Positions 3,164-21,560 of a DNA stretch of 23,274 nt are shown one piece after another (positions within the stretch are counted from its first letter, which is position 1; every line of letters begins with the position of its first letter). The position numbers were made by a program, and so were the translations under genes. The DNA is from a virus. The notes below the pieces were generated by a model. It was not told the origin of the DNA, searched no databases, and worked only from the letters and a program-made list of their open reading frames with translations. The DNA lies in IMG/VR virus record IMGVR_UViG_3300042344_000529, positions 1 through 23,274 of that record; one strand, written 5' to 3'.

Positions 3164-3270
3164 CGCGCCACCCGGTTGATGCGCCTCGAGCGGCGGGCCA
3201 CCTTGTTACGGGCGCGGCGCCGCACCGTCGCCAAGTACTGCTGCACACGGCGCTGCTGCTTCAGAGTCAC
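3160..3270 (-). CDS. 36-aa arginine-rich micro-peptide
   Basis: A short frame runs from a GTG at 3270, overlapping the antirepressor stop (GTGA), to a TGA at 3160-3162 that overlaps the next GTG start. Fourteen of its 36 residues are Arg or Lys and none is acidic; the core reads VRRRARNKVARRSRRINR. It would form a basic helix of the kind that binds RNA or DNA. Its place right after the antirepressor recalls the arginine-rich antiterminators of lambdoid phages, but that is only a hypothesis. It is supported by junction geometry on both sides, not by homology. Confidence 0.6.
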   Translation of the reverse strand: MTLKQQRRVQQYLATVRRRARNKVARRSRRINRVAR

Positions 3271-3965
3271 GCGGCGAACCCCTCGGCGGCCAACTCCCAC
3301 ACCCAGGCCGGATAGCTGTTCACCGTGCCGAAATGCGGGTGGTGAACCTTGTCGGGGTCAATACCGTGTGTTCGGGCGATCATCCCGGCGCAGCGGGAGA
3401 ACCTAGCCAGGAACTTCTCGTAGGTCGGCATCCCGTTGATGCGCGCATAGCCCAAAGCAGTGAGCCAGCCGTGCTTGCCCTCAATGCTGTCAAGGCGAGC
3501 CTCGTTGCGTTCGGCAAGCTGCTTGGCTTCGGCTGCATCGCGCTGTGCGGCTTCAAGTTGGTCGATCATGGCCCGGAGGGCGTCGAACTGGTTGACCGCC
3601 GGGACCCGGACGGTCCGCTGGTTGAAGTAGGCATCTAGGGCGTCGGCGGCTTGGCGCTGGAACGCCTCGATGGTCGGACGGGATTGCGGACTAACGCGGC
3701 CGGAATCAATTGTGGCGAGCCACATTGTCATGGTGCGCCGGTCGATCATCAGCATTTCCCGCGGCTTACCGTCCGCAGCAACCACGGTCATGATGGACGT
3801 GGTTGCCCATGAGGTGCGCTTAAGCCGCTTGGCCTGAGCGTCGGCGTCGATTCCTAGCGAATCGCACAAGGGGCGAAGGGCGACGAACGCATGTCCGCCA
3901 ACGTGGACGGCCTGCAGGGGAACGGTTGCTCCGGGCACCGCCACCGGGACCAGTTCGGCGCTCAT
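3267..3965 (-). CDS. Phage antirepressor (P22_AR_N type)
   Basis: This 232-aa protein begins with a P22 antirepressor-type N-terminal domain (about residues 8-115): FVALRPLCDSLGIDADAQ, then KRTSWATTSIM, MLMIDRRTMTMWLATID and AFQRQAADALDAYF. A Gln/Ala-rich linker at about 125-165 leads to a C-terminal domain with RCAGMIARTHGIDPDKV and FGTVNSYPAWVWE, as in KilA/BRO-like antirepressors. Such proteins bind or bypass the repressor to favour lytic growth. The ATG at 3965 overlaps the Cro-like stop (ATGA), so the two are co-translated. The protein ends in GFAA, a degron-like tail shared with the other regulators. Confidence 0.88.
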   Translation of the reverse strand: MSAELVPVAVPGATVPLQAVHVGGHAFVALRPLCDSLGIDADAQAKRLKRTSWATTSIMTVVAADGKPREMLMIDRRTMTMWLATIDSGRVSPQSRPTIEAFQRQAADALDAYFNQRTVRVPAVNQFDALRAMIDQLEAAQRDAAEAKQLAERNEARLDSIEGKHGWLTALGYARINGMPTYEKFLARFSRCAGMIARTHGIDPDKVHHPHFGTVNSYPAWVWELAAEGFAA

Positions 3966-5020: not shown

Positions 5021-5092
5021 GTCACGAAAGTCATCCGGGGGGATAACAATTGTTGCCACCGCAAGTATCTGAGCAGCCCGCTGTGCTGAACT

Positions 5093-5120
5093 CCCTGCCA
5101 CACAAACGTGGACGACAGGG
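5093..5120 (+). promoter_or_regulatory. Hairpin over the integrase ribosome-binding site
   Basis: CCCTG-CCAC (5093-5101) can pair with GTGG (5108-5111) and, after a 4-nt internal loop, CAGGG (5116-5120). The second arm contains the only Shine-Dalgarno-like sequence before the integrase ATG at 5128. Folding would hide it and lower integrase translation. The stem is short and interrupted, so this is tentative. Confidence 0.3.
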
Positions 5121-5127
5121 ATTCAAC

Positions 5128-5961
5128 ATGCAACTACACCCACTCATCGAGGAATGGGTTCTGCACCAACTCTCCGCCCGGCGGTCCACGAAAACCGTCC
5201 ACGAACGCTCCAGAGTGATCCAACAGTTCCTCAACGAGGTCGGGGCCAGCCCCGTCACCCTCACCGCGATGGACATCGTCCGGTGGACATCGGGGCACGA
5301 CGAATGGTCGTTGTCCACCGCCGCCACCTACCACTCCTACCTGTCGTCCTGGCATAAGTGGCTGTGTTTGTTCGACCACCGCTCCGACAACCCCATGCGG
5401 AAGCTGTCCTCCCCGCGCCGGCCGGAACGCACACCCCGCCCCGTCGCCGACGACGGCATGATCACACTCCTCACCATGCGGATGCACCGCCGCACCAGAG
5501 TGATGGTGATGCTCGCCGCCCTCGCCGGTCTCAGGGTGGGGGAGATCGCCAAAGTCAAAGGCGAAGACCTCGACCTCGCGGGCCGCAAAATCTATGTGAT
5601 CGGGAAGGGCGCGAAGCGGGCGTGGGTTCCGCTGCACCCGCTGCTCATCGAGGTGGCCGCGCAGATGCCGCAGCGCGGCTGGTGGTTCCCCGGCAACATC
5701 CGCAGGCCCGGGGAACACATCCACCCCAAAAGCGTGTCCGACATCCTGGGGCAGGCGATGCGCCGAGCACGGGTCCAGGGGACACCGCACTCCCTGCGCC
5801 ACTGGTACGCCTCCACCCTCCTTGATGATGGGGCGGACCTGAGGACGGTGCAGGAGCTGCTGCGCCACACGTCCATCCAAACCACCCAGGTGTACACCAA
5901 AGTCAGGGACGAGCGCCGGGTGTCAGCGGTGGACCGGCTGGACCCATTCCGGGCTGCGTAA
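5128..5961 (+). CDS. int: Tyrosine recombinase, phage integrase
   Basis: This 277-aa site-specific recombinase has a SAM-like core-binding domain (about residues 1-100) and a catalytic domain with all expected residues. These are R136 in AGLRVGE, K160 in VIGKGAK, H221 and R224 in HSLRHWY, H247 in LLRHTSI, and the nucleophile Y256 in TTQVYTK. It would integrate the genome at the tRNA-Lys-like att site that begins 14 nt after its stop. The ATG at 5128 has CAGGG 7 nt upstream; the longer frame to 5050 has no good start. At this size it lacks the usual N-terminal arm-binding domain and is XerC/D-like. It ends PFRAA, a possible ClpXP degron. Confidence 0.93.
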   Translation: MQLHPLIEEWVLHQLSARRSTKTVHERSRVIQQFLNEVGASPVTLTAMDIVRWTSGHDEWSLSTAATYHSYLSSWHKWLCLFDHRSDNPMRKLSSPRRPERTPRPVADDGMITLLTMRMHRRTRVMVMLAALAGLRVGEIAKVKGEDLDLAGRKIYVIGKGAKRAWVPLHPLLIEVAAQMPQRGWWFPGNIRRPGEHIHPKSVSDILGQAMRRARVQGTPHSLRHWYASTLLDDGADLRTVQELLRHTSIQTTQVYTKVRDERRVSAVDRLDPFRAA

Positions 5962-10393: not shown

Positions 10394-10565
10394 GCCGATC
10401 CTCCCACTCCCAGTCGTACCGGCTCTCCGGGGAGAGCGGGCTGCCGTCACGTTCAAAGTTGTGTGCGCTGCCACCACCGATGGTGGCCTCGCTGTCTTCT
10501 TCAGCCCCGCCGACCACATCCACGGTGAGGACGGGGATTCCGAAAACCCTGACCACGATTGTCAT
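10365..10565 (-). CDS. Small protein between two minor tail genes
   Basis: This 66-aa frame starts at ATG 10565, overlapping the upstream tail gene stop (ATGA). It begins MTIVVRVFGIPVLTVDVV, a short hydrophobic, beta-prone stretch, and continues with an acidic and Gly-rich tail (AEEDSEATIGGG). Similar VRVFG-starting small proteins occur beside tail genes in actinophages. It overlaps the next gene by 29 nt, where that gene's GGGAGG ribosome site lies inside this frame. No function is known to me. Confidence 0.68.
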   Translation of the reverse strand: MTIVVRVFGIPVLTVDVVGGAEEDSEATIGGGSAHNFERDGSPLSPESRYDWEWEDRRGFGFGATR

Positions 10566-12526
10566 TCCAAACCCCACGGGCGGGACCAGGGGCGGGGTAG
10601 GCGCAACGCCACCATCTGGCCGGGCTTACACCCAGACACCGTGATCTCGAACTTACGGGCGCCGGTGTAAGGGGGGACGAAGTGTTTGAACCTCACCCCG
10701 TTCATGCGGCCCCACAGTTCCGAACCGGACTCCGACACAACCTGCTCCACACGCGGGTCGGTGTCGACGAACGCGTTCTCCGCCGCGGCGGTAGCGCCTT
10801 GTAACCGGACAGCGGTGGTGACCCTCGGTTTCCGGCCACCGGTCAACGCCACAGACACAGGCTCAAGAGGCGGAACGTTCTTGCCGGAAAGAGCGCCCAG
10901 GAATGTGATTTGGATTGGGTGGGAGCCCTGCGTGACCGTTTCGATGGCCACAGCCGGGTTCTTCCCACCGGTCAACCTCGACGCATCAGCCTTCATCATT
11001 TCAGCGTTGTACCCGGACAGGGCACCGCCGAACGTGATGGTGTTCTTGCGGTAGCCCGGGGTGAGGATTTTCGTGTTCACCGATATCCCCGCACCGCCGG
11101 ACAACCCGGAAGCGTCAGCGGTCAAACGGTTAACCGCAACCCCACCCAGGTTGCCTTGGAACGCAACCTTCCACCACGGCCCACCACCGAACAAACCCGC
11201 CCCGGTGACGTTGATGTCGAACGAACCGATGTTGGGTAGCTTCGACAGTTCAAACGCCACAGTGAGATTCGATGCCCGGTAGGGGATCGGGTCGGTGGTC
11301 TGCCCATCCAGGGTGAGTCGGAACGTGCCCTGGGTGGGTTCACCGACGATCCGTACCTCCTGGACGCAGTTCTGCACTTTCTGGTCCACACTCACACCCA
11401 CCATCGACACCTGTGGCAGCGCAGCCAACGCCGCATACATGTTCAGGGCGATCGCGTTGTACGGAATCCAGTCAGTCCAGTTGTCCTCAAAGGACAGGCG
11501 GAAAGACCCCCCTGTGGCGCCGCCGGTCAGCTCCACGGTTTGCTTCTCATCCACAGCGGGGTTCCGGGTGACCTCAACATCCCCCGCGGCGATCTGCGCT
11601 AACGCCACCAACGCGTTCTGGATTTGCGTGGTATTCGCGTTGTGCGGGATGGTGCCGGTGGTTTCCGTTCCGAACTTCAGGCGGAAGTTCCCACCAGTGG
11701 GCCTACCGTCGATGACGAGCTGCTGAATCTCGTTGGTCCGCAGACCGCCGATCAGACCGGGCAGGCGCAGCCGGCGGTCCTTCTGGTCGTCGTCCTCCCA
11801 CGAATAGTCGGGCAGCGTCCAAATAGTTGCCTTCGACCGTGGGGCTCCCAGCCACGGCAGCCACGGGATGTACGGCTCCGCCGGGGCCTCGGTGGAACCG
11901 GGGACACCCCATTTAGGCCAGATGATCTGATCTGTCGGATTGACCTTCGGAACATCAATGAACAGTGTTTCCTTGGGCAGTTCGTTCTGCGGCCACGGCC
12001 ACGGCAACTGCAACGCATTCGGGTCGAAGCTGGTGTCTGTTTTCGTGACAGCGGTGTGGATTTCGTCCTCACCCCACCAGAACGGGTCATTGGCCACACA
12101 CACCATCGACACCCGGTTGATGGTGTGCATACGCGGGTCGGTGGTGGTGTCAACCTGGGGGGACTCCAACAGCCGAACCTTCAGATACCGTGTCCCCGAC
12201 TCCGGGGTCGTGACGAACAGTGTGCAGTCAGCATCGAAGGACCACGCTTTGCGCCACTCCGAATCCCTCGACAACCACGACTGGTTCTTCGACGGGTCGT
12301 CCAGGATCTCCACCGCGAACACCATGTCGCGGCGCAACACCCGGTGATTCAAATACCTTGAGCCCGGATAGTTACCGGGCTCCTCGGACACCACCTTCAC
12401 CGGGGGGTCGAAGAACTCCTTCAACCCTGTTCCCAGGTACACACCTTTATCCCCGGCGTTGGGGCCGGCGATGGTGAACCGGACCCCGTTGACACCTTCC
12501 AACACAACTACGGTGCCAGGTCTCAC
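10562..12526 (-). CDS. Minor tail protein with internal repeats (L5 gp27-like)
   Basis: This 654-aa protein directly follows the tape measure gene, where siphophages encode the distal tail protein. The first 230 residues fit a distal-tail or minor tail fold (HRVLRRDMVFAVEILDD, FWWGEDEIHTAV) and are Trp/Pro-rich near 175-230. Residues about 268-565 carry two repeat types, three copies each: GGxFRLxF...IPYNA...LxALP and ITFxGALSGxN...LTGG. The end (RFKHFVPPYTG, EITVSGCKPG) returns to the core fold. I chose GTG 12526 (GGGAG 5 nt upstream) over TTG 12538. The repeats may be surface domains that bind glycans or the host. Confidence 0.85.
   Translation of the reverse strand: MRPGTVVVLEGVNGVRFTIAGPNAGDKGVYLGTGLKEFFDPPVKVVSEEPGNYPGSRYLNHRVLRRDMVFAVEILDDPSKNQSWLSRDSEWRKAWSFDADCTLFVTTPESGTRYLKVRLLESPQVDTTTDPRMHTINRVSMVCVANDPFWWGEDEIHTAVTKTDTSFDPNALQLPWPWPQNELPKETLFIDVPKVNPTDQIIWPKWGVPGSTEAPAEPYIPWLPWLGAPRSKATIWTLPDYSWEDDDQKDRRLRLPGLIGGLRTNEIQQLVIDGRPTGGNFRLKFGTETTGTIPHNANTTQIQNALVALAQIAAGDVEVTRNPAVDEKQTVELTGGATGGSFRLSFEDNWTDWIPYNAIALNMYAALAALPQVSMVGVSVDQKVQNCVQEVRIVGEPTQGTFRLTLDGQTTDPIPYRASNLTVAFELSKLPNIGSFDINVTGAGLFGGGPWWKVAFQGNLGGVAVNRLTADASGLSGGAGISVNTKILTPGYRKNTITFGGALSGYNAEMMKADASRLTGGKNPAVAIETVTQGSHPIQITFLGALSGKNVPPLEPVSVALTGGRKPRVTTAVRLQGATAAAENAFVDTDPRVEQVVSESGSELWGRMNGVRFKHFVPPYTGARKFEITVSGCKPGQMVALRLPRPWSRPWGLE
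10830..11720 (-). repeat. Protein-level tandem repeats in minor tail gene
   Basis: In the minor tail protein, type A units (FRLKFG, FRLSFE, FRLTLD, each followed by an IPxxA and a leucine-rich helix) occur near residues 270, 332 and 394. Type B units (xxxFxGxLxGxN...LTGG-like) occur near 455, 496 and 539. The order is A-A-A-B-B-B. The copies have diverged at DNA level, so they are old duplications. Confidence 0.65.
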
Positions 12527-12527
12527 G

Positions 12528-15500
12528 TCATCTCCCAATGGTTGCTTGCATTTGCCGGTTCTGAAGGGTCCTTTGGCCGCTCAAAGCGTCATCCATGTTC
12601 GCCACGTTGAACACGAAGTTTGATGCGTAATCGAGGCCCTGCTGCATCAGCGACGGGATAGCGCCCTGGCCGGACCAACCCAGATCGGACAGGAACTGGT
12701 TACCGGTGGCGGTGGCGAAATCCAACGGCAACTTCTGGAGGCTCTTGATCTGTTCCTGGTAGCTCTGAGACGTGGATGACATTTGCCCGCCGTACTTCTG
12801 GGCGTAGGCCAGTTTGTCGCGCTCCAACCCGAGGGCGGTTTTCTGGTTGCGGATCTGCTCGAGCTGCGCCTTGATCGCGCCCTGGTCGGCGTTCGGGTTG
12901 TCCTTCGCGAGTTGCAGTTCCTTGCGGCGGATCTCCAACTCCGCGATGGACTGCCCCAGCTGGTCGATCTTCTGCTTCGCAGCGGTGGTGTCGATCTGAG
13001 TTAACGACTGGCCGGCAGCACCCATTGACTGTTTGAAGTCCGCCGCCGCCGCCGACGTGGACGCCAACTGGGTTTGCAGCCCCGAAAGCGCGGGGGTCTC
13101 CGACGCCGCGTTGAGGTTGAAGTTCAGGTTCACCCCCTCGGCGGAGCCGAACACGTCCTTCACCGACTGCAGGATGGCCGTCGCGTACTCCTTGATTTGG
13201 GCGACGCTGGAACCGACTTGGGAGCCGACACCTTCGTTGAAGCCCTCACCGACGTTCACACCGATGTCGCGGAACACCGTTGACGGCGAGTTGATCCCGA
13301 GGAACCCTTTCACCGCGCCCACCACACTGGACGCCACTTCCTGGGCGGCTTGCAAGGCTGCGCCGGCCATCGACTTGATGCCGTTGACCAACCCTTGGAT
13401 CAGGTCCTTGCCCGCCGACACCAGCAGCGAACCGAAGTTGGAGCACGCCGACACAACTCTCGCGCCGAACGCCACGAACTCAGCGATGCCGCTGGCCACA
13501 CCCGATGTGATCGCTGAGACGAACTGGCTCATCCCGGCGGTGATGGAGTTGACCACCCCGGACACCCCCGAGGTGACCGCGTTGATCATCGCGGCGGCCA
13601 GCCCCGCGAACACACCGATCACCTGGGCGACCACCCCAGCCAAGCTGCTGATGATGTTCAGCAGCGGAGCGAACGCCGAAAGCACTTGCAGCGCCGCGGT
13701 CGCCAGATTCGCCGCCGCCGGGATCAGCGGTATGAACGCCTGCACCAGTTGCAGCAGCGGCGGGACGAGCTGAATGAGAACGGGTAGCAGAGCGGCGAAG
13801 GTTTGCGCTAACTGGGGCAGCACCTGGGCCAGCGCCCCCGACAGAGCGGTGGCCAACTGGGTGAACGCCGCAACGATCAGCGGCATCAGCGGGGCCAACG
13901 CCTGGATGGCGGTCGTTAACACCCCGCCGAGGGTGGTGGCCACCTGTGCGAGGATCGGCGCCAACGCTGTCGCGGCGGCGGTCAACACCGGCCCCAGGAC
14001 CTGCGCCAACTGGGTTAGAGCGGGGGCGACGGCAACCACAGCTTGCGATAGCGCGGTGCCTAGTGTCGACGCCAGCTGGGTGAGGATCGGTGAGATCGCT
14101 GACACCGCAGGGGTGAGAGCGGCGAACGCCGGGGCCAACGATGTGCCCAACGCCCCAATGGTGTTCGCGACACCCGCCGCGAACGCTGTCAGCGCAGGCG
14201 TCGCCCCGACGAGCAGATCACCGAACCCGCCGAGCAGGTTCTGCAGAGGCGCACCCAACGAACCCATCGCCTGCGCACCCGCCTCAAACAGCCGGGTGAA
14301 TAAGGTGAAGATGCCGTCAAGGGTTTGCGACAACCCCTGCAACGCGCCCTCGAACACACCGTTGGAGGTGATGCGCTGCGCCATCGCGTCGAAGCCGTTC
14401 GCGAAGTTCTGCAGCGGGGCGAGCAGCAACCCGAACGACTGCGCCCCCGACGAAGCTAACGTGAGGAACGACTGCGTTGCTGTTTGCACTACCGGGCCGA
14501 GGTCCCGGAAGAAACCACCTACCCCTTGCAGGATTGTTCCGATCTGCTGCACACCCTGAACTGAGGTGGCGGCGTTCGCGAATCCCTGGAAAATCCCGGA
14601 AAGCCCCGAGGCGATCTCCTGGAATCCCGACTTCAGAACCGGAAAAATCGGGAGGAACTGCTGAAAGATCGGGGTGAGCTGCTCCTGGAACGTGCCGGCC
14701 ACCGCCGCTTTCAGCTCATCGAACGCTGGTTTCACCGACTGCGCTGCCGCTTTGATGCCATCTAAGCCCAAAGCGACCGCCGCACTACCAGCGGCGAACG
14801 CACTGATCAGTGATGGCAGACCGGCGAGGAGACCAGCGACCAACCCGATCGCGGGTGCGGCGGCGGCGAACACCGCGAACGTGATCAGCTGAGTTCGTCC
14901 GCTCAGCCGCCCCATCGACGCTGAGGCGGAATCGGCCGCCTTGTCCACATCCCTCAAGCCCAGAGAAAGACCGAGTAGCCCTCTATCGCTGATGTTGGTT
15001 TTGAGGTTCTCCAGCTTGGACTGCAGCACGACCAGTGACCGCCGAAAGCGATCAGAGTCGACCTCAATAGGTACTTCGACTTTTGACCTACCCGCCAAGG
15101 TTTTTACCTCAGCGAGGCTCTTCTCGAAGTCCGCCTTGATTTGAGCGGAATCAAACTCCGCGTCCAGTTCCACGGGAAGCTGACGCAGCTCCGCAACAAG
15201 ACCTGATATGCGTTTGCGGAGCTGATCGTCGTCAACATCGGTTCGGATCGTGGCCCGCAGCGACGCAGCTTTGTTGATGATGTCGGCACGCCACTGCTTG
15301 AAAGCCTGCTCGTCGGTCTCAGGCTTTACCGGCAACGAGGTTTCCGGCAGACCTTGAGGGTCTGTGAACTTCGGCTCGAACGGAACATCGGTCTTCGGGA
15401 GGTTCTTCGTTGCGTCCCTGATGCTTTCCCGCAGCTGCTCACCGATGCGGGACGTGTCGGCGCCGACAGCGACTTCAGCGTCAAGGCTCTCGGTGGCTGC

Positions 15501-15659
15501 CCGGACCTCGTCCCGCAGCCGGCTGGTGTCAGCACCAATCCGGATCTCCGAGACTTTACGTTCCAGTTCCTCCAGCTCACCCTGAAGTTGCTCCCGGAAC
15601 CGATCCAAATCGGGGATGACCCGGATGGAGACCTTCCCGACTTCCTTCGAACCGGCCAT
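12528..15659 (-). CDS. Tail tape measure protein
   Basis: At 1043 aa this is the longest gene and sets tail length, roughly 150-160 nm at 0.15 nm per residue. The N-terminal 230 residues are charged and coiled-coil-like (FREQLQGELEELERKV). A hydrophobic stretch lies at about 255-300, and a long Ala/Leu/Pro repeat region (LAPxLxQLAxxLG units) runs from about 500 to 680. The hallmark FLGINSPSTVFRDIGVNVGE occurs near 810, followed by a coiled coil (AELEIRRKELQLA). The ATG at 15659 has AGGAAGG upstream, and the frame overlaps the shifted chaperone ORF by 83 nt. It would be threaded into the tail tube and ejected ahead of the DNA. Confidence 0.95.
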   Translation of the reverse strand: MAGSKEVGKVSIRVIPDLDRFREQLQGELEELERKVSEIRIGADTSRLRDEVRAATESLDAEVAVGADTSRIGEQLRESIRDATKNLPKTDVPFEPKFTDPQGLPETSLPVKPETDEQAFKQWRADIINKAASLRATIRTDVDDDQLRKRISGLVAELRQLPVELDAEFDSAQIKADFEKSLAEVKTLAGRSKVEVPIEVDSDRFRRSLVVLQSKLENLKTNISDRGLLGLSLGLRDVDKAADSASASMGRLSGRTQLITFAVFAAAAPAIGLVAGLLAGLPSLISAFAAGSAAVALGLDGIKAAAQSVKPAFDELKAAVAGTFQEQLTPIFQQFLPIFPVLKSGFQEIASGLSGIFQGFANAATSVQGVQQIGTILQGVGGFFRDLGPVVQTATQSFLTLASSGAQSFGLLLAPLQNFANGFDAMAQRITSNGVFEGALQGLSQTLDGIFTLFTRLFEAGAQAMGSLGAPLQNLLGGFGDLLVGATPALTAFAAGVANTIGALGTSLAPAFAALTPAVSAISPILTQLASTLGTALSQAVVAVAPALTQLAQVLGPVLTAAATALAPILAQVATTLGGVLTTAIQALAPLMPLIVAAFTQLATALSGALAQVLPQLAQTFAALLPVLIQLVPPLLQLVQAFIPLIPAAANLATAALQVLSAFAPLLNIISSLAGVVAQVIGVFAGLAAAMINAVTSGVSGVVNSITAGMSQFVSAITSGVASGIAEFVAFGARVVSACSNFGSLLVSAGKDLIQGLVNGIKSMAGAALQAAQEVASSVVGAVKGFLGINSPSTVFRDIGVNVGEGFNEGVGSQVGSSVAQIKEYATAILQSVKDVFGSAEGVNLNFNLNAASETPALSGLQTQLASTSAAAADFKQSMGAAGQSLTQIDTTAAKQKIDQLGQSIAELEIRRKELQLAKDNPNADQGAIKAQLEQIRNQKTALGLERDKLAYAQKYGGQMSSTSQSYQEQIKSLQKLPLDFATATGNQFLSDLGWSGQGAIPSLMQQGLDYASNFVFNVANMDDALSGQRTLQNRQMQATIGR

Positions 15660-16415
15660 CTGAACCTTCCTCAGCCAACTTTTGGGCCGCGATAGCGGCG
15701 AACGAACCAGCGCCGCGGCGCTTCGGACGGTCAGGGATGGGGAACGGCTCCGGCGGCTTCGGCCGGGACTTCACATGCGCCGACACATAGGTGTGCTGCA
15801 ACGCCCTCATCGCGTTCACCGTCGCCACCGCGGCGTACCGGGACGCGTCCCAACCGCGGAACTGCTGCCCACCACGCAGAGCTGCGTTGAACCGGCCACC
15901 CTCGGGCAGGCCGCGGATCAACACCAACAACCACAGCGGTGTCAGCGGGCTGCTCGGATGCACCAGATCCCGCAGATCCACCCGGTAATGCTCGAGGAGG
16001 TCAGCGGCCAAATGCTCACCGTACTCATCTATGAGGTCGGCGAGCCCTCGGCTTCCCCCGCCTGGGTGCCCTCCATCCACCGGCTGAACACCCGCAGCGT
16101 CAACGCCAAATCGTCCTCAATGGACTCCACGAGCTTCGCGCCGAGCTTCTCGTTGTCGGCCACCAAAGGCAGGATTTTCAGGGCGATCTGCGCGGACTGC
16201 TCAGTGGCCACCAAGCCGTCCTGGTCGTCGTCTTTCTGGATGTCGGACAGCTCATCGAGCAGTGCGTACACCTGTTCCCGGGTGTTCTTCGGGAGCCGCA
16301 GAAGGTTCCGCAGCGTCAACGTTTTCCCCTCCCCCAAATCCACCTGGCAGGGGGCGAACTCCCGCTCGATGTCTTCGCGGAGGGAATCCAAAGTCAAAAT
16401 GTTGCTGTTGGGCAT
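15577..16415 (-). CDS. Tail assembly chaperone, -1 frameshift product (gpGT-like)
   Basis: The shorter chaperone ORF and a second open frame (down to 15577) are joined by a -1 shift, giving about 279 aa. The likely slip site is GGGGGAA (16059-16053, minus strand), at codon 120 (GGG) of the first ORF, near its 3' end as expected. The T-like part includes HPSSPLTPLWLLVLIRGLPE and RYAAVATVNAMRALQHTYV. Programmed shifting between two genes ahead of the tape measure is conserved in siphophages; both products coat the tape measure during tail assembly. The T-like frame overlaps the tape measure start by 83 nt, longer than usual. The precise slip point is inferred. Confidence 0.82.
16029..16415 (-). 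CDS. Tail assembly chaperone (gpG-like)
   Basis: This 128-aa acidic, mostly helical protein (ILTLDSLREDIEREF, LPKNTREQVYALLDELSDI) is the unshifted product and should be made in excess over the frameshifted form. It sits between the major tail subunit and the tape measure, the universal chaperone position. The start is ATG 16415 with GAAAGG upstream; the frame to 16451 adds residues with no better signal and runs toward the hairpin. It binds the tape measure and helps tube subunits polymerise. Confidence 0.9.
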   Translation of the reverse strand: MPNSNILTLDSLREDIEREFAPCQVDLGEGKTLTLRNLLRLPKNTREQVYALLDELSDIQKDDDQDGLVATEQSAQIALKILPLVADNEKLGAKLVESIEDDLALTLRVFSRWMEGTQAGEAEGSPTS

Positions 16416-16458
16416 GGCTGGGCCTTTCTCATAGCGGGTCTCGGCGGGCAAAGGTGAG

Positions 16459-17617: not shown

Positions 17618-17974
17618 CTAGGCTTGGCTGTGCGTCCCCGTCATGATGTAAAGACCGAACGGCGCTTTCGTGCGGGTTCCCTCCAACTTCCCCGAGGGGG
17701 CGTGCCCGTACTCGATGGCCATCGCGTTCGCGGCGGTCATGGAGACGTGGTAGTCGCAGGTGTACTGGCCGTCCGCTTCGGACACTTCGATGGCGGTTTC
17801 GCCGGCCGAGCCGCGGTCGTACTTCACCCATTTCGTTGATGAGCGTGCGGCTGTTAACCGGGTTTGCGCGATGCCTTCCAGGCGGCCCGCTTCGTCCCGC
17901 AACGCACCCTTCACCCCGTCCATGTGGGCGATCATCCCGTTGAACGCTTTGCCCTTCTTGTAGATCTCCGCCAT
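17618..17974 (-). CDS. Neck/tail completion protein (HK97 gp10-like)
   Basis: This 118-aa protein has a helical N-terminal half (GRLEGIAQTRLTAARSST), then GETAIEVSEADGQYTCDYHV, and AMAIEYGHAPSGK. An IEYGHxxSG signature is common to HK97 gp10-type and DUF5403-like proteins of the head-tail joint. It lies between stopper and terminator, as expected. Its start shares one base with the upstream stop (TGATG), and its own TAG is followed at once by the AGGAGG of the next gene. The exact role in the neck is inferred. Confidence 0.8.
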   Translation of the reverse strand: MAEIYKKGKAFNGMIAHMDGVKGALRDEAGRLEGIAQTRLTAARSSTKWVKYDRGSAGETAIEVSEADGQYTCDYHVSMTAANAMAIEYGHAPSGKLEGTRTKAPFGLYIMTGTHSQA

Positions 17975-18321
17975 CAGTGCCTCTTGATGGTGTAGATCAG
18001 GTGGGAGGTGCGCGGAGAGTTGGTGTACCTCAACGGGTCACCGTGGATGACCCACCGCTCACCCATCCACTCAATTTGGGACTGGGCACCCAACACACAT
18101 CTCAGGCCGCGGGGGAAACGCAGCGAATACACCTTCTCGCTGTCGAACCCATCCCCGTACTGGTCGGCTGAGGCTGCGCCACCGGAACCCAACGGTTGGA
18201 TGCGTGCCCTGGCCCGGAACCCGCACTTAGCGGCTTGGGTTTTCGTGTTTCCGTCCGCGTCGGTGACCTTTTCCTCCGGGTACACAACCACGCACTGATT
18301 ACCCCTGTCCAGAAGGCTCAT
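17974..18321 (-). CDS. Head-tail stopper (head closure) protein
   Basis: This 115-aa beta-rich protein reads NQCVVVYPEEKVTDADGNTK, then GFRARARIQPLG, KVYSLRFPRGL and QIEWMGERWVIHGDP, ending TSHLIYTIKRH. The WMGERWVIHGDP motif and size match head closure proteins of L5-like and HK97-like phages (SPP1 gp16 fold), which seal the head after packaging. Its ATG at 18321 overlaps the upstream stop (ATGA). Normally this gene follows the adaptor gene closely; here they are separated by more than 2.8 kb of fibre-like genes and a small HTH-like gene. Confidence 0.8.
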   Translation of the reverse strand: MSLLDRGNQCVVVYPEEKVTDADGNTKTQAAKCGFRARARIQPLGSGGAASADQYGDGFDSEKVYSLRFPRGLRCVLGAQSQIEWMGERWVIHGDPLRYTNSPRTSHLIYTIKRH

Positions 18322-18635
18322 TGGGTGAGTGCGGCTTTCACGTCCGAGGGCCGGATCAGCTTCGTGCGGTCCTTGAGGATGTGCGGGATAACCCCGTCAG
18401 CGACGAGCTTCTTCAGCCGATTCATGGAGATGTCAACGACACCTGGCACCCGTGTCATCGGGATCGGTGCGTCGTCCTCTGCCGGCTGCGCGGCGAGGGC
18501 GTTCACCCGGTCTGCCAGCGTGACGATTTCACCCGCCTTGCCTGCCCGATCCTTCTTCCAATCGAGGTTGTCGATGAGTAGCTTGGCCAGCGTGTCGGGC
18601 AGATCGGCTTTGACTTCTCCGTTGGTGATTTCCAT
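18318..18635 (-). CDS. Small HTH-like protein in connector cluster
   Basis: This 105-aa protein has a helical N-terminus (LPDTLAKLLIDNLDWKK) and a C-terminal part SMNRLKKLVADGVIPHIL, then DRTKLIRPSDVKAALTQ. It resembles an excisionase/MerR-type winged helix: a recognition helix, a short wing, then a terminal helix. AGGAGG sits 5 nt before ATG 18635. A DNA-binding protein among virion genes is unexpected. It may bind DNA in the capsid or neck, regulate, or simply use this fold structurally. The HTH reading is from pattern only. Confidence 0.75.
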   Translation of the reverse strand: MEITNGEVKADLPDTLAKLLIDNLDWKKDRAGKAGEIVTLADRVNALAAQPAEDDAPIPMTRVPGVVDISMNRLKKLVADGVIPHILKDRTKLIRPSDVKAALTQ

Positions 18636-18644
18636 ATTGACCTC

Positions 18645-19382
18645 CTAGTCCACCCTGATGAAGTAGTTGACAACAAAGTGCTTCGGGCGGGTTTCCGCGT
18701 CGCCGCCAGTGACAGGATTTGTGGACTCACCGGGACGCAGGTACGCCTCGCCTGCCGCATACGACGCAGAACCCGCTATGCCCCGTCCACTGTCGCCCTG
18801 TCTGATCGGGTTGCGTGCGGTGACGGTGAAGTTGGTGCGCGGTGCCCTAGTTGAGTCATCGACGTGGGCGTTGAGCGTGCCACCGGCCCACCCGGTAACG
18901 CCTGCCCGTGTGCCTGCGCCGCGCAGGAACGACCCACGCAGATCAGGCACCGTGTTGCGTTTGGTGAGCGTTGCATACGCTGTTTCTGCCACGCTGCGCC
19001 CATCGCACAGCACCCACACACCGGTCATGCCGCTGATCTCAGCCTCAGTGAGCAGCGACGAAATGACCGTCCCGATAGGTGACGGCTCCGCTTTGATTGC
19101 CGCCACCTCGGCTTGGAGTTTGGTCAACTCGCCGCGCATCGCCACCGTAAGCCCTTGCAGGGCAGACGATTTACCGTTTAGGTCGGTAAACCCGGCCTGG
19201 ACGGTGTCCATCCGAGCCGAGATGGCGTTTAGGTAGGCCGTCATCTGATTACTGACCTGCGCCAAAGGCAGGGCAGGGTCCATCAGAGCATCGGAGATGA
19301 GCGTCTTTGTGTCGGCGGGAACGGTGCGCGGGAACTGCGCCTGCTGGCCGGTACGGTCTTTGTTGCCGAAAGTTGTAGCCAT
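18645..19382 (-). CDS. Fibre/appendage protein with tail-collar-type C-terminus
   Basis: This 245-aa protein has an N-terminal GNKDRTGQQAQF motif shared with the next gene upstream, and a helical shaft (about residues 25-100: NAISARMDTVQAGFTDLNGK, LTKLQAEVAAIKAE). From about 100 there is a collar/tip domain with GVWVLCDGRSV, VPDLRGSFLRGAG and the terminal ETRPKHFVVNYFIRV. These are hallmarks of short tail fibres and tail-collar proteins, which form trimers and often bind receptors. Here the gene lies between head-tail connectors, far from the tail-tip genes. A neck or head appendage is a good inference. It starts at a TGATG junction. Confidence 0.82.
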   Translation of the reverse strand: MATTFGNKDRTGQQAQFPRTVPADTKTLISDALMDPALPLAQVSNQMTAYLNAISARMDTVQAGFTDLNGKSSALQGLTVAMRGELTKLQAEVAAIKAEPSPIGTVISSLLTEAEISGMTGVWVLCDGRSVAETAYATLTKRNTVPDLRGSFLRGAGTRAGVTGWAGGTLNAHVDDSTRAPRTNFTVTARNPIRQGDSGRGIAGSASYAAGEAYLRPGESTNPVTGGDAETRPKHFVVNYFIRVD

Positions 19383-19927
19383 CAGAACACCTGATAGCTG
19401 ATGCCGTCGAATTGCACGGTGTCGTATTTTCCGGTGGGGGCCGAAACGGAAATGCCGCCGTCTGTGCTGATGCGGACACCCGCAAGCCGGTACGACGTAC
19501 CGGTGTCCACAGCGAACGCGGCGGCGTTGACCTCAAGCTGGGGATTCGGGATTGCGCTGTTCAATTTTCGGACACCCAACCCCGACCCCGGCGATGACAC
19601 CTTGACAGCCACAGTGCCCCGCAGTTGCACCGTCCCGTTGATGAGTCGGGCCTCAACCAGTCCCGTGCCCGTGCCGTTGAGTGGGCAGGCCACCCAGTCA
19701 ACGTTGGGTGGCACGTTTTTGCCTCCGGTGAAGATGTTGCGAATCTCAGTGACGGTGCTGGCTGGCAGCGGAGGGGGAGCCGCCTTGTCGGCTTTCAACG
19801 CCTCCAGGTCTGTGCGCATCGCCCCGATAACCGCCTCCATCACGGTGAAGTCACCATCAAACGGCGTCAGAGTGCGGGTGAACTTCTGAGGCTCACCCGC
19901 CCTATCCTTGTTACCCAGGACCGTCAT
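19382..19927 (-). CDS. Fibre-like protein with shared anchor motif
   Basis: This 181-aa protein starts MTVLGNKDRAGEPQKFTRT, nearly matching the N-terminus of the 245-aa neighbour. A short helical shaft (MEAVIGAMRTDLEALKADK) and a Pro-rich turn lead to a beta-rich C-terminal domain (GLVEARLINGTVQLRGTVAV, RLAGVRISTDGGISV), different from the neighbour's collar tip. I chose ATG 19927 with GGGAG 6 nt upstream; a GTG three bases earlier is possible. It probably shares an attachment point with the next protein but presents another head domain. Function inferred. Confidence 0.75.
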   Translation of the reverse strand: MTVLGNKDRAGEPQKFTRTLTPFDGDFTVMEAVIGAMRTDLEALKADKAAPPPLPASTVTEIRNIFTGGKNVPPNVDWVACPLNGTGTGLVEARLINGTVQLRGTVAVKVSSPGSGLGVRKLNSAIPNPQLEVNAAAFAVDTGTSYRLAGVRISTDGGISVSAPTGKYDTVQFDGISYQVF

Positions 19928-21153
19928 CACTTACTCCCTGGGAAGTCGATGCCAGTAGCTTCGACCAACGCCGTCAGCAGATCGTTGAGCAACCAGAACA
20001 TTTCGGTGATGGACTGCACCGTCGCGGTTGGCCCGTTCATGGCGTTCATCACGTCCTGCACCAGCTTCGCTAGGTCGTTGTGGTTGGTATACACGCCGCT
20101 GAATAGGTCGACAATGGAGTTCTCCCACCGCTCAAAGAATTCCTTGTCTAAGTACTTCTCGGTCACCCAAGCGACAATCTCCGCGTCCTGAGCCTCAAGC
20201 CGCTGAGTCTCCTCAACCGCGAACGCGGCCTGCTCACGCAGGGCAGCGATATCGGTTTCGCTGATCTTCTGCGCCAGTTCAGCTTTCATGGTGACGTTCT
20301 CCGCCTCAAGGGCGTCCAGACGTGCCAGCAGCGAATCGACGACCGCCTGCGATACACCCTCACCGGAGAGGGCCGCAGCTTCCAACGCGGTGACGCGATC
20401 ACCAAGCTCATCTTTGACAATCGCCTGAATCAGCACCGGCAGCCCGGCCTGCACATCAGCCGCAGTCGGGTTGGCCGACAGCGGTTTACCGGACAGCGCC
20501 GACAGCAGTTGCGCAACAGCAACACTGCCGTCCGACAACGCCTGCCAGATGACCTCAACGTCAGCCAGAGTCGCACCGGGCTTCACCGCGAGCAGGTCAA
20601 GTAGAGGCTGCAAATCGGCGGGATTGTTGCCTGCGACCTGCGCCACCAGATCATCCCAGGCGGTCACCGCTAGGGCGACCAGCCCGCCGCCCGCAATTGT
20701 GATTGCCGACGGATCAGGATTACCTGCGACCGCCGTAAGGAACTGCTGCAAGCCGACACTCGTTGCGTACGCGCTGCTTCCGAGAGTACCGAGGTTGTCA
20801 TCAACGCCCGTGACATAGACGATCAGGTCCGCGACAGTCCCGCCAAAAACGTCAAGGATCGGCTGCACCTGGCCCAGCAGCGCCGCCTGCTCCGGTGTCA
20901 AACCACCACCCGCAACAGTGGCGATAGCAGCTGCGATAGCCGCATCAACCTGCGCCTGGGTTGGGCCTGTCGGGGAGATCGGCAGGTTCGCGATGGCCGT
21001 ATTGACGATGGCCTCAACCTGGGCCTGGGTCAGGCCCCCGGTGACGACCCCGCCGCCGAGTGACCCACCACCATTGGGCAGGACACCGTAATCATCCTGC
21101 AGTGTTTGGTAGATCAGTTTCTTAACACCGATCACCGTGAAAACTGTTGTCAT
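19927..21153 (-). CDS. Long Ala-rich fibre or whisker-like protein
   Basis: This 408-aa protein begins with a short basic segment (VIGVKKLIYQTLQDDYG), then Gly-rich sequence and two similar repeats (LTQAQVEAIVNTAIANLP and PTQAQVDAAIAAAIATV). A long helical middle (DRVTALEAAALSGEG, LLARLDALEAENVTMKAELA, EETQRLEAQDAEIVAWVTEK) looks like a trimeric coiled coil. The C-terminus is amphipathic. It fits an extended appendage, not a globular connector. The ATG at 21153 overlaps the adaptor stop (ATGA), tying the module to the neck genes. No known family is recognised; a neck whisker is one option. Confidence 0.75.
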   Translation of the reverse strand: MTTVFTVIGVKKLIYQTLQDDYGVLPNGGGSLGGGVVTGGLTQAQVEAIVNTAIANLPISPTGPTQAQVDAAIAAAIATVAGGGLTPEQAALLGQVQPILDVFGGTVADLIVYVTGVDDNLGTLGSSAYATSVGLQQFLTAVAGNPDPSAITIAGGGLVALAVTAWDDLVAQVAGNNPADLQPLLDLLAVKPGATLADVEVIWQALSDGSVAVAQLLSALSGKPLSANPTAADVQAGLPVLIQAIVKDELGDRVTALEAAALSGEGVSQAVVDSLLARLDALEAENVTMKAELAQKISETDIAALREQAAFAVEETQRLEAQDAEIVAWVTEKYLDKEFFERWENSIVDLFSGVYTNHNDLAKLVQDVMNAMNGPTATVQSITEMFWLLNDLLTALVEATGIDFPGSK

Positions 21154-21560
21154 TGCTGTATTTCCGCCTCACCTAGAACTGTGTATCCATCGCCAAGCAG
21201 CACCGAAGGCACAAGGGTGGTCAAACGGTTCCGGTAAACACCCAGCATCGCCCACTCATCAGAAGTCAAACTCAACTTCCCCGTAGCGAGGTCTTTCGAC
21301 AACTGGTAGGTGTAATTGCCGTCCGTTTCACTGACATAGCCCTCAGGGTTGCGGCATAAACGCAGCACCGCGTCAGCCTCAACCTGAATCAGATCCTCAA
21401 CATCAATCGAACCTGCGGCGAGCCGATCATCGAGCGTGGGAACCCTGCGGCGGATCAGGCGCTCAACGTCCTCCAAGCGAACCGAAACGAGTTCCCTTTC
21501 CTCGCAGGACAGATCGCGGGACCAGCGCACCGCGACATCGTCAACGGATGCGAAAGCCAT
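21150..21560 (-). CDS. Head-tail adaptor protein (Gp19-like)
   Basis: This 136-aa mostly helical protein reads FASVDDVAVRWSRDLSCEE, then LVSVRLEDVERLIRRRVP, VEDLIQVEADAVLRLCRNPEG and TYQLSKDLATG. This is the pattern of the Gp19/Gp15-type adaptors that sit under the portal and receive the stopper. The start is ATG 21560, sharing one base with the upstream stop (TGATG); the longer frame to 21782 covers the small basic gene and is false. The next gene in line is the long fibre-like protein, not the stopper. Confidence 0.85.
   Translation of the reverse strand: MAFASVDDVAVRWSRDLSCEERELVSVRLEDVERLIRRRVPTLDDRLAAGSIDVEDLIQVEADAVLRLCRNPEGYVSETDGNYTYQLSKDLATGKLSLTSDEWAMLGVYRNRLTTLVPSVLLGDGYTVLGEAEIQQ

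Follow-up and report, generated by a model that had tools for sequence, protein, structure and literature searches.

A probable fibre cassette between the head-tail adaptor and stopper genes of a cluster-A-like mycobacteriophage may be an accessory, neck-attached receptor-binding device

Fibres attached near the head-tail joint have been described in lactococcal and cyanobacterial phages. The neck passage structure (NPS), or collar-whisker, of the lactococcal 936 and P335 phages is encoded by an optional gene of the structural module, which lies upstream of mtp in 936 phages (PMC4759559, PMC6669499, PMC4493119). It is a single protein of ~500-900 aa whose conserved N-terminus of ~180 residues resembles the BppU collar domain and is joined to several exchangeable C-terminal types, forming a coiled-coil fibre that is accessory to the receptor-binding protein of the tail tip. 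A C-terminal carbohydrate-binding module of the NPS binds cells weakly (PMC6669499). Neck fibres have been demonstrated structurally in the Anabaena myophage A-1(L), where they consist of gp80-82 (PMC10966104). By its description this is a multi-protein fibre in which the N-terminus of one component, a domain of ~125 residues, is anchored on the 15-fold gp5 ring of the neck, and the numbers of the fibre genes are far removed from those of the neck genes, gp5 and gp7. In the mycobacteriophage structures that we found, the receptor-binding proteins are located on the baseplate of the tail (PMC13033339, PMC13252515), and no description of a second adsorption device at the head-tail joint in this phage group was found in the literature.

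The window analysed here is the whole stretch of 23,274 nucleotides of a 23-kb IMG/VR record (IMGVR_UViG_3300042344_000529). In the phage collection search its DNA matches Mycobacterium phages only, its gene order agrees with that of Mycobacterium phage JeppNRM, and, judged by its genes, it is the minus-strand late operon of a cluster-A-like mycobacteriophage. Scaffold, capsid, the adaptor Ad1, the stopper Hc1, Neck1 and the tail terminator could all be assigned with PHROGs, as could tail genes (phrog_106, phrog_110 and phrog_737); the contig excludes the left arm of the phage. The Dit-like minor tail protein (10562-12538, minus strand) exceeds JeppNRM gp29 in length by ~200 aa, and three stretches of its internal repeats match tail-sheath/major-tail profiles (phrog_2839). 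An overlapping pair of reading frames between the major tail protein and the tape measure (15577-16451, minus strand) looks like tail assembly chaperones with a programmed frameshift. The phage is probably temperate, because a tyrosine integrase (5050-5961, plus strand) and an Ant-like antirepressor (3267-3965, minus strand) are encoded.

An earlier note on this DNA had described three genes of 408, 181 and 245 aa as a fibre module that splits the adaptor from the stopper, two genes that are normally close neighbours. The three reading frames are present on the minus strand. Ad1 (21150..21560, minus strand; 136 aa; phrog_137, E 5e-41; Pfam Phage_Gp19) is followed by the putative fibre shaft F408 (19927..21153, 408 aa), the candidate tip protein F182 (19382..19927, 181 aa) and a second candidate tip protein, F245 (18645..19382, 245 aa), which has a probable tail-collar-type C-terminus (phrog_523). 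The head closure protein, or stopper, Hc1 (17974..18321, minus strand; phrog_320, E 1e-35) forms the other flank. The tight joins hold as well: ATGA between the adaptor gene and that of F408, and TGATG both between F408 and F182 and between F182 and F245. Counted from its ATG (19927), F182 has 181 aa; it reaches 182 only with the preceding GTG as start. All three genes stand in the gap, but they share it with a fourth, g105 (18318..18635, minus strand), which encodes a small protein of 105 aa. Relatives of g105 also come after tips in tail-array contexts (L009 and L130; L numbers denote loci fetched for comparison). The g105 N-terminus resembles a small protein encoded directly before the adaptor (MxIxNxxxGxxADxPxxLAxxLxxxGW; L078:430-624). 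A helix-turn-helix profile matches the C-terminus of g105 below threshold (HTH_17, E 0.13). The gene may have arisen by duplication of a small head-region gene.

The module is very probably a fibre cassette. Residues 69-244 of F245 match the tail collar fiber profile phrog_523 (E 6e-11) and also phrog_327 (E 2e-9), whereas the Pfam Collar match of 18.4 bits lies under the curated cut-off of 24. The tail-collar-type C-terminus that had been proposed for F245 is therefore backed by PHROG profiles but not by Pfam. The coiled coils proposed at the same time stand for F408, where heptad periodicity over residues 338-400 scores 13.3, with 8.4 as the 99th percentile of shuffled sequences, and fall for F245, in which no heptad periodicity above shuffles was found. 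Members of the tail collar family are annotated as tail fibres, and the C-terminal part of F245 would be what the module has in common with them; the module lies instead in the connector region and has one shaft followed by two tips. Globular connector proteins, with the task of lengthening or sealing the neck, would suit the position between connector genes, and that point only. The collar-fibre profiles of F245, the relatives that are fused to a tail-fibre/hyaluronidase-type N-terminus (L130) and the full connector set encoded besides the module (Ad1, Hc1, Neck1 and the terminator) speak against this already disfavoured explanation and leave it very improbable.

The phage-database search that the earlier note had suggested returned nothing from isolated phages: tblastn with F408, F182 and F245 found no match among 50,697 phage records. 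In the same collection a type-B tip and the L013 shaft have no homologue, and none was found among isolated phages for the N-terminal region of the shaft in L009. An alignment of shafts gave no confirmed match in GTDB genomes, and PDB sequence searches, queried with F245 and also with the alignment of tips, gave no meaningful match. AlphaFold2 monomer models of F245 and F182 had pLDDT values of 36-37, too low to use. The F182-type tip of L016 (3447-3911) shows a faint resemblance to the receptor-binding head domain of lactophages (Pfam Caudo_bapla_RBP, E 0.057, below threshold).

Comparison with relatives identifies the module as an insertion. The cluster A mycobacteriophages Bxb1 and JeppNRM agree with the module-bearing phages in gene order, and their genes for connector, tail and left-arm fibres are homologous, but their adaptor and stopper lie about 120-180 bp apart (121 bp in Bxb1), and no homologue of the module was found in them. 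The gap was measured in every fetched locus in which both genes were found. It is 1.9-2.8 kb in the module-bearing IMG/VR contigs, as opposed to 0-179 bp in 12 loci of named genomes (prophages of Mycolicibacterium, Mycolicibacter, Nocardia, Segniliparus, Rhodococcus and others) and in all other module-less relatives measured. Stopper matches occur in 1023 isolate records and adaptor matches in 1028; among the matches listed (60 each), the phages present in both lists, for example Salz, NorthStar and Ajay, have the two genes about 130-180 bp apart. As far as these sequences tell, the space between adaptor and stopper in cultured relatives holds no more than one tiny gene. The separation of two usual neighbours by an insertion is thereby confirmed, and relatives that lack just this block and keep the two genes adjacent were looked for and found among isolates, prophages and fetched loci.

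The position of the module is constant in all module-bearing loci measured, and it recurs at the same place in contigs from many metagenomes; the identical arrangement in so many metagenomes rules out an assembly chimera. Its genes are under purifying selection, with dN/dS values of 0.06-0.24 in comparison with L007. This selection and the recurrence at one place argue that the block is not there by chance. A relocation of the usual fibre set was considered and ruled out. The cluster-A left-arm fibre set (a gp4-like gene and a collagen-like gene), located upstream of lysin A, is kept in the module-bearing genomes L079, L069 and L041, and L079 (44 kb) further keeps Dit-like, Tal-like and additional tail-end genes. 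Because these genomes retain both left-arm and tail-end fibre genes, the module is, on gene content, an addition to the usual fibres and not a move.

The sequence record of the module is that of an adsorption locus, in which shafts and tips are swapped and the flanks stay similar. Between the window and L007, dS is 0.07 for scaffold, 0.02 for capsid and 0.00 for the adaptor, and 0.22-0.30 for the module. Between the window and L013, adaptor and stopper are 99% identical, the shafts about 40%, and the tip is of another type. For the distant L027, tip dS is 0.48-0.66 and that of the measurable flanks 1.08 or more; since the tips are closer than these flanks, they have moved between lineages. A block of the window on the minus strand (18661..20842) is common to unrelated phages: 18661-20618 is shared with L009 at 91.4% and 18661-20842 with L026 at 89.2%. 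These shared blocks of 2.0-2.2 kb (89-91% DNA identity) end within the shaft, and there is no DNA match outside them. In L009, a 63.8-kb contig, the block lies among tail genes, just ahead of an endolysin gene, on a different N-terminus. Arrays of fibre genes in L130, L157 and L170 include relatives of these shafts and tips, carried on still other N-termini, one of which, in L130, is of the tail-fibre/hyaluronidase type. Interchangeable N-terminal anchors on a common shaft and tip, as expected of a modular cassette, are thus found when these loci are compared with the window. The fibre or adsorption character claimed for the module is upheld by the collar-fibre profiles, the coiled-coil signal, the exchange of shafts and tips, and the near-identical copies in the tail-fibre arrays of other phages. 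A small secreted-looking protein is encoded beside the cassette, in the adaptor-stopper slot of L039 (3514-3873) and in the fibre arrays of L130 (6363-6671; phrog_658) and L170 (5514-5846); we take it to resemble mycobacterial DUF732 proteins.

If the module were a neck whisker serving mostly structure or assembly, the role suggested for T4 fibritin, it would bind no receptor. Such a whisker would agree with a shaft that carries a coiled-coil signal and sits between connector genes. The tips, however, fall into several unrelated or distant types that are exchanged between phages, which fits receptor binding and not a structural brace, and no fibritin match was found in Pfam or PHROGs; a purely structural whisker is accordingly improbable. 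Our main reading, to which we give a probability of roughly 0.55, is that the module is a fibre cassette for receptor binding, accessory and modular, with the neck as the most likely point of attachment.

Two short sequences bear on the site of attachment. The first is a putative N-terminal anchor peptide of F408, residues 1-27 (21073..21153, minus strand), with the consensus M[AT]TV[FI]TV[IV]GV..LIY in 87 fetched loci, a redundant set. The adaptor gene is directly upstream of it in 83 of these redundant loci, and the remaining 4 of the 87 stem from one contig that breaks off within the adaptor gene. The anchor peptide has no match in isolated phages and is absent from the tail-array fibres compared and from the left-arm fibres of module-bearing genomes. 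The second is a C-terminal extension of the adaptor, residues 123-136 (21153..21194, minus strand), a candidate docking site for the module. Residues 3-122 of Ad1 align with the Bxb1 adaptor gp15 (PDB 9d94). All 15 module-bearing adaptors examined carry the extension LVPS..LG[DN]..T[VI], whereas the adaptors of module-less cluster A phages, including Bxb1 gp15, stop before its position. Other, unrelated adaptor extensions occur in some module-less phages (L054, L055, L059, L062, L081 and HanShotFirst). The LVPS extension is not a scar of gene overlap, being conserved also where the genes do not overlap. A pairing of anchor subtypes with adaptor subtypes was not seen: the window and L016 have identical anchors and adaptors that are only 65% identical, so the two do not co-vary at this fine level. 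The extension belongs to the C-terminal arm of the adaptor. In the cluster L4 phage Douge, this arm passes between portal subunits, between their clip and wing domains, and extends as far as the vertex of the capsid (PMC13033339).

Attachment of the fibre to the neck is plausible and is favoured because the anchor was found only next to the adaptor gene and the adaptor extension accompanies the module. Gene order is an unsafe guide to position in the virion. In lactococcal phage TP901-1 the gene of the neck-passage protein follows those of the baseplate (PMC4493119), and in cluster A phages fibre-like proteins with tail annotations have genes a long way from the tail operon. Since gene order does not fix virion position, neck attachment is something that we infer, and a smaller, though real, share of the probability goes to an accessory tail-tip fibre. 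Such a fibre would join the other minor tail proteins at the baseplate, and the slot between adaptor and stopper would merely be tolerated within the late operon. The shafts and tips of the same kind in the tail-fibre arrays of L009, L130, L157 and L170, and the cluster A fibre-like genes outside the tail operon, are in keeping with this. Those tail-array fibres and the left-arm fibres of module-bearing genomes do not share the anchor peptide, however, the adaptor extension goes with the module, and the module never varies in position; a tail-tip location is on balance unlikely.

In a neck-attached fibre, F408 would be the shaft, probably trimeric, and its first ~27 residues would fix it to the neck. 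The partner there would most likely be the adaptor ring, by way of the C-terminal extension of the adaptor. The conserved C-terminal helix of F408 (NGP.AT...MFWLLND...ALVEATGI; 19948..20046, minus strand) is a candidate tip holder. Where the shaft ends in this FWLLND helix, the tips encoded next have an FGNKDRxG-like N-terminus (with motif variants in L078 and L007). In L016 and others an F182-type tip is fused onto the shaft; these shafts are without the helix, and the next tip is without the motif. Such co-variation points to docking, but it is suggestive only and does not count independent events, because the loci share ancestry. On this basis the helix could hold both F182 and F245 by their common N-terminal motif. 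The tips would then contact the cell surface before the tail tip engages, and adsorption would be raised or redirected, in the way in which lactococcal NPS are thought to act. The fuller scheme, which we offer tentatively, is that tail-fibre cassettes were re-mounted on the adaptor ring through a swapped anchor of ~27 residues and an adaptor extension, with tips made interchangeable by a shared docking motif.

Among described systems, the NPS is the nearest functional parallel to the module. Like the NPS gene, the module is an optional part of the structural genes. Both combine a conserved N-terminus with exchangeable C-terminal types, and both would form a coiled-coil fibre that supplements the receptor-binding protein of the tail tip. 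In the module, by contrast, the conserved N-terminus has ~27 residues, shaft and tips are spread over separate genes, and attachment to the neck is a proposal. The A-1(L) neck fibre, although it belongs to a myophage, is likewise built from several proteins and held by the N-terminus of one of them, as suggested for the module. Profile searches of Pfam and PHROGs gave no match of F408 that might represent a BppU-like collar domain; because it does not match the collar domain profile, the module may work like an NPS and is not classed as one.

If neck attachment is correct, an uncultivated clade of soil mycobacteriophages would have a second and independent means of adsorption in the form of an exchangeable fibre where head and tail meet. 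The anchor peptide, together with the adaptor extension, would offer a testable idea of how phages shift fibre cassettes between attachment sites.
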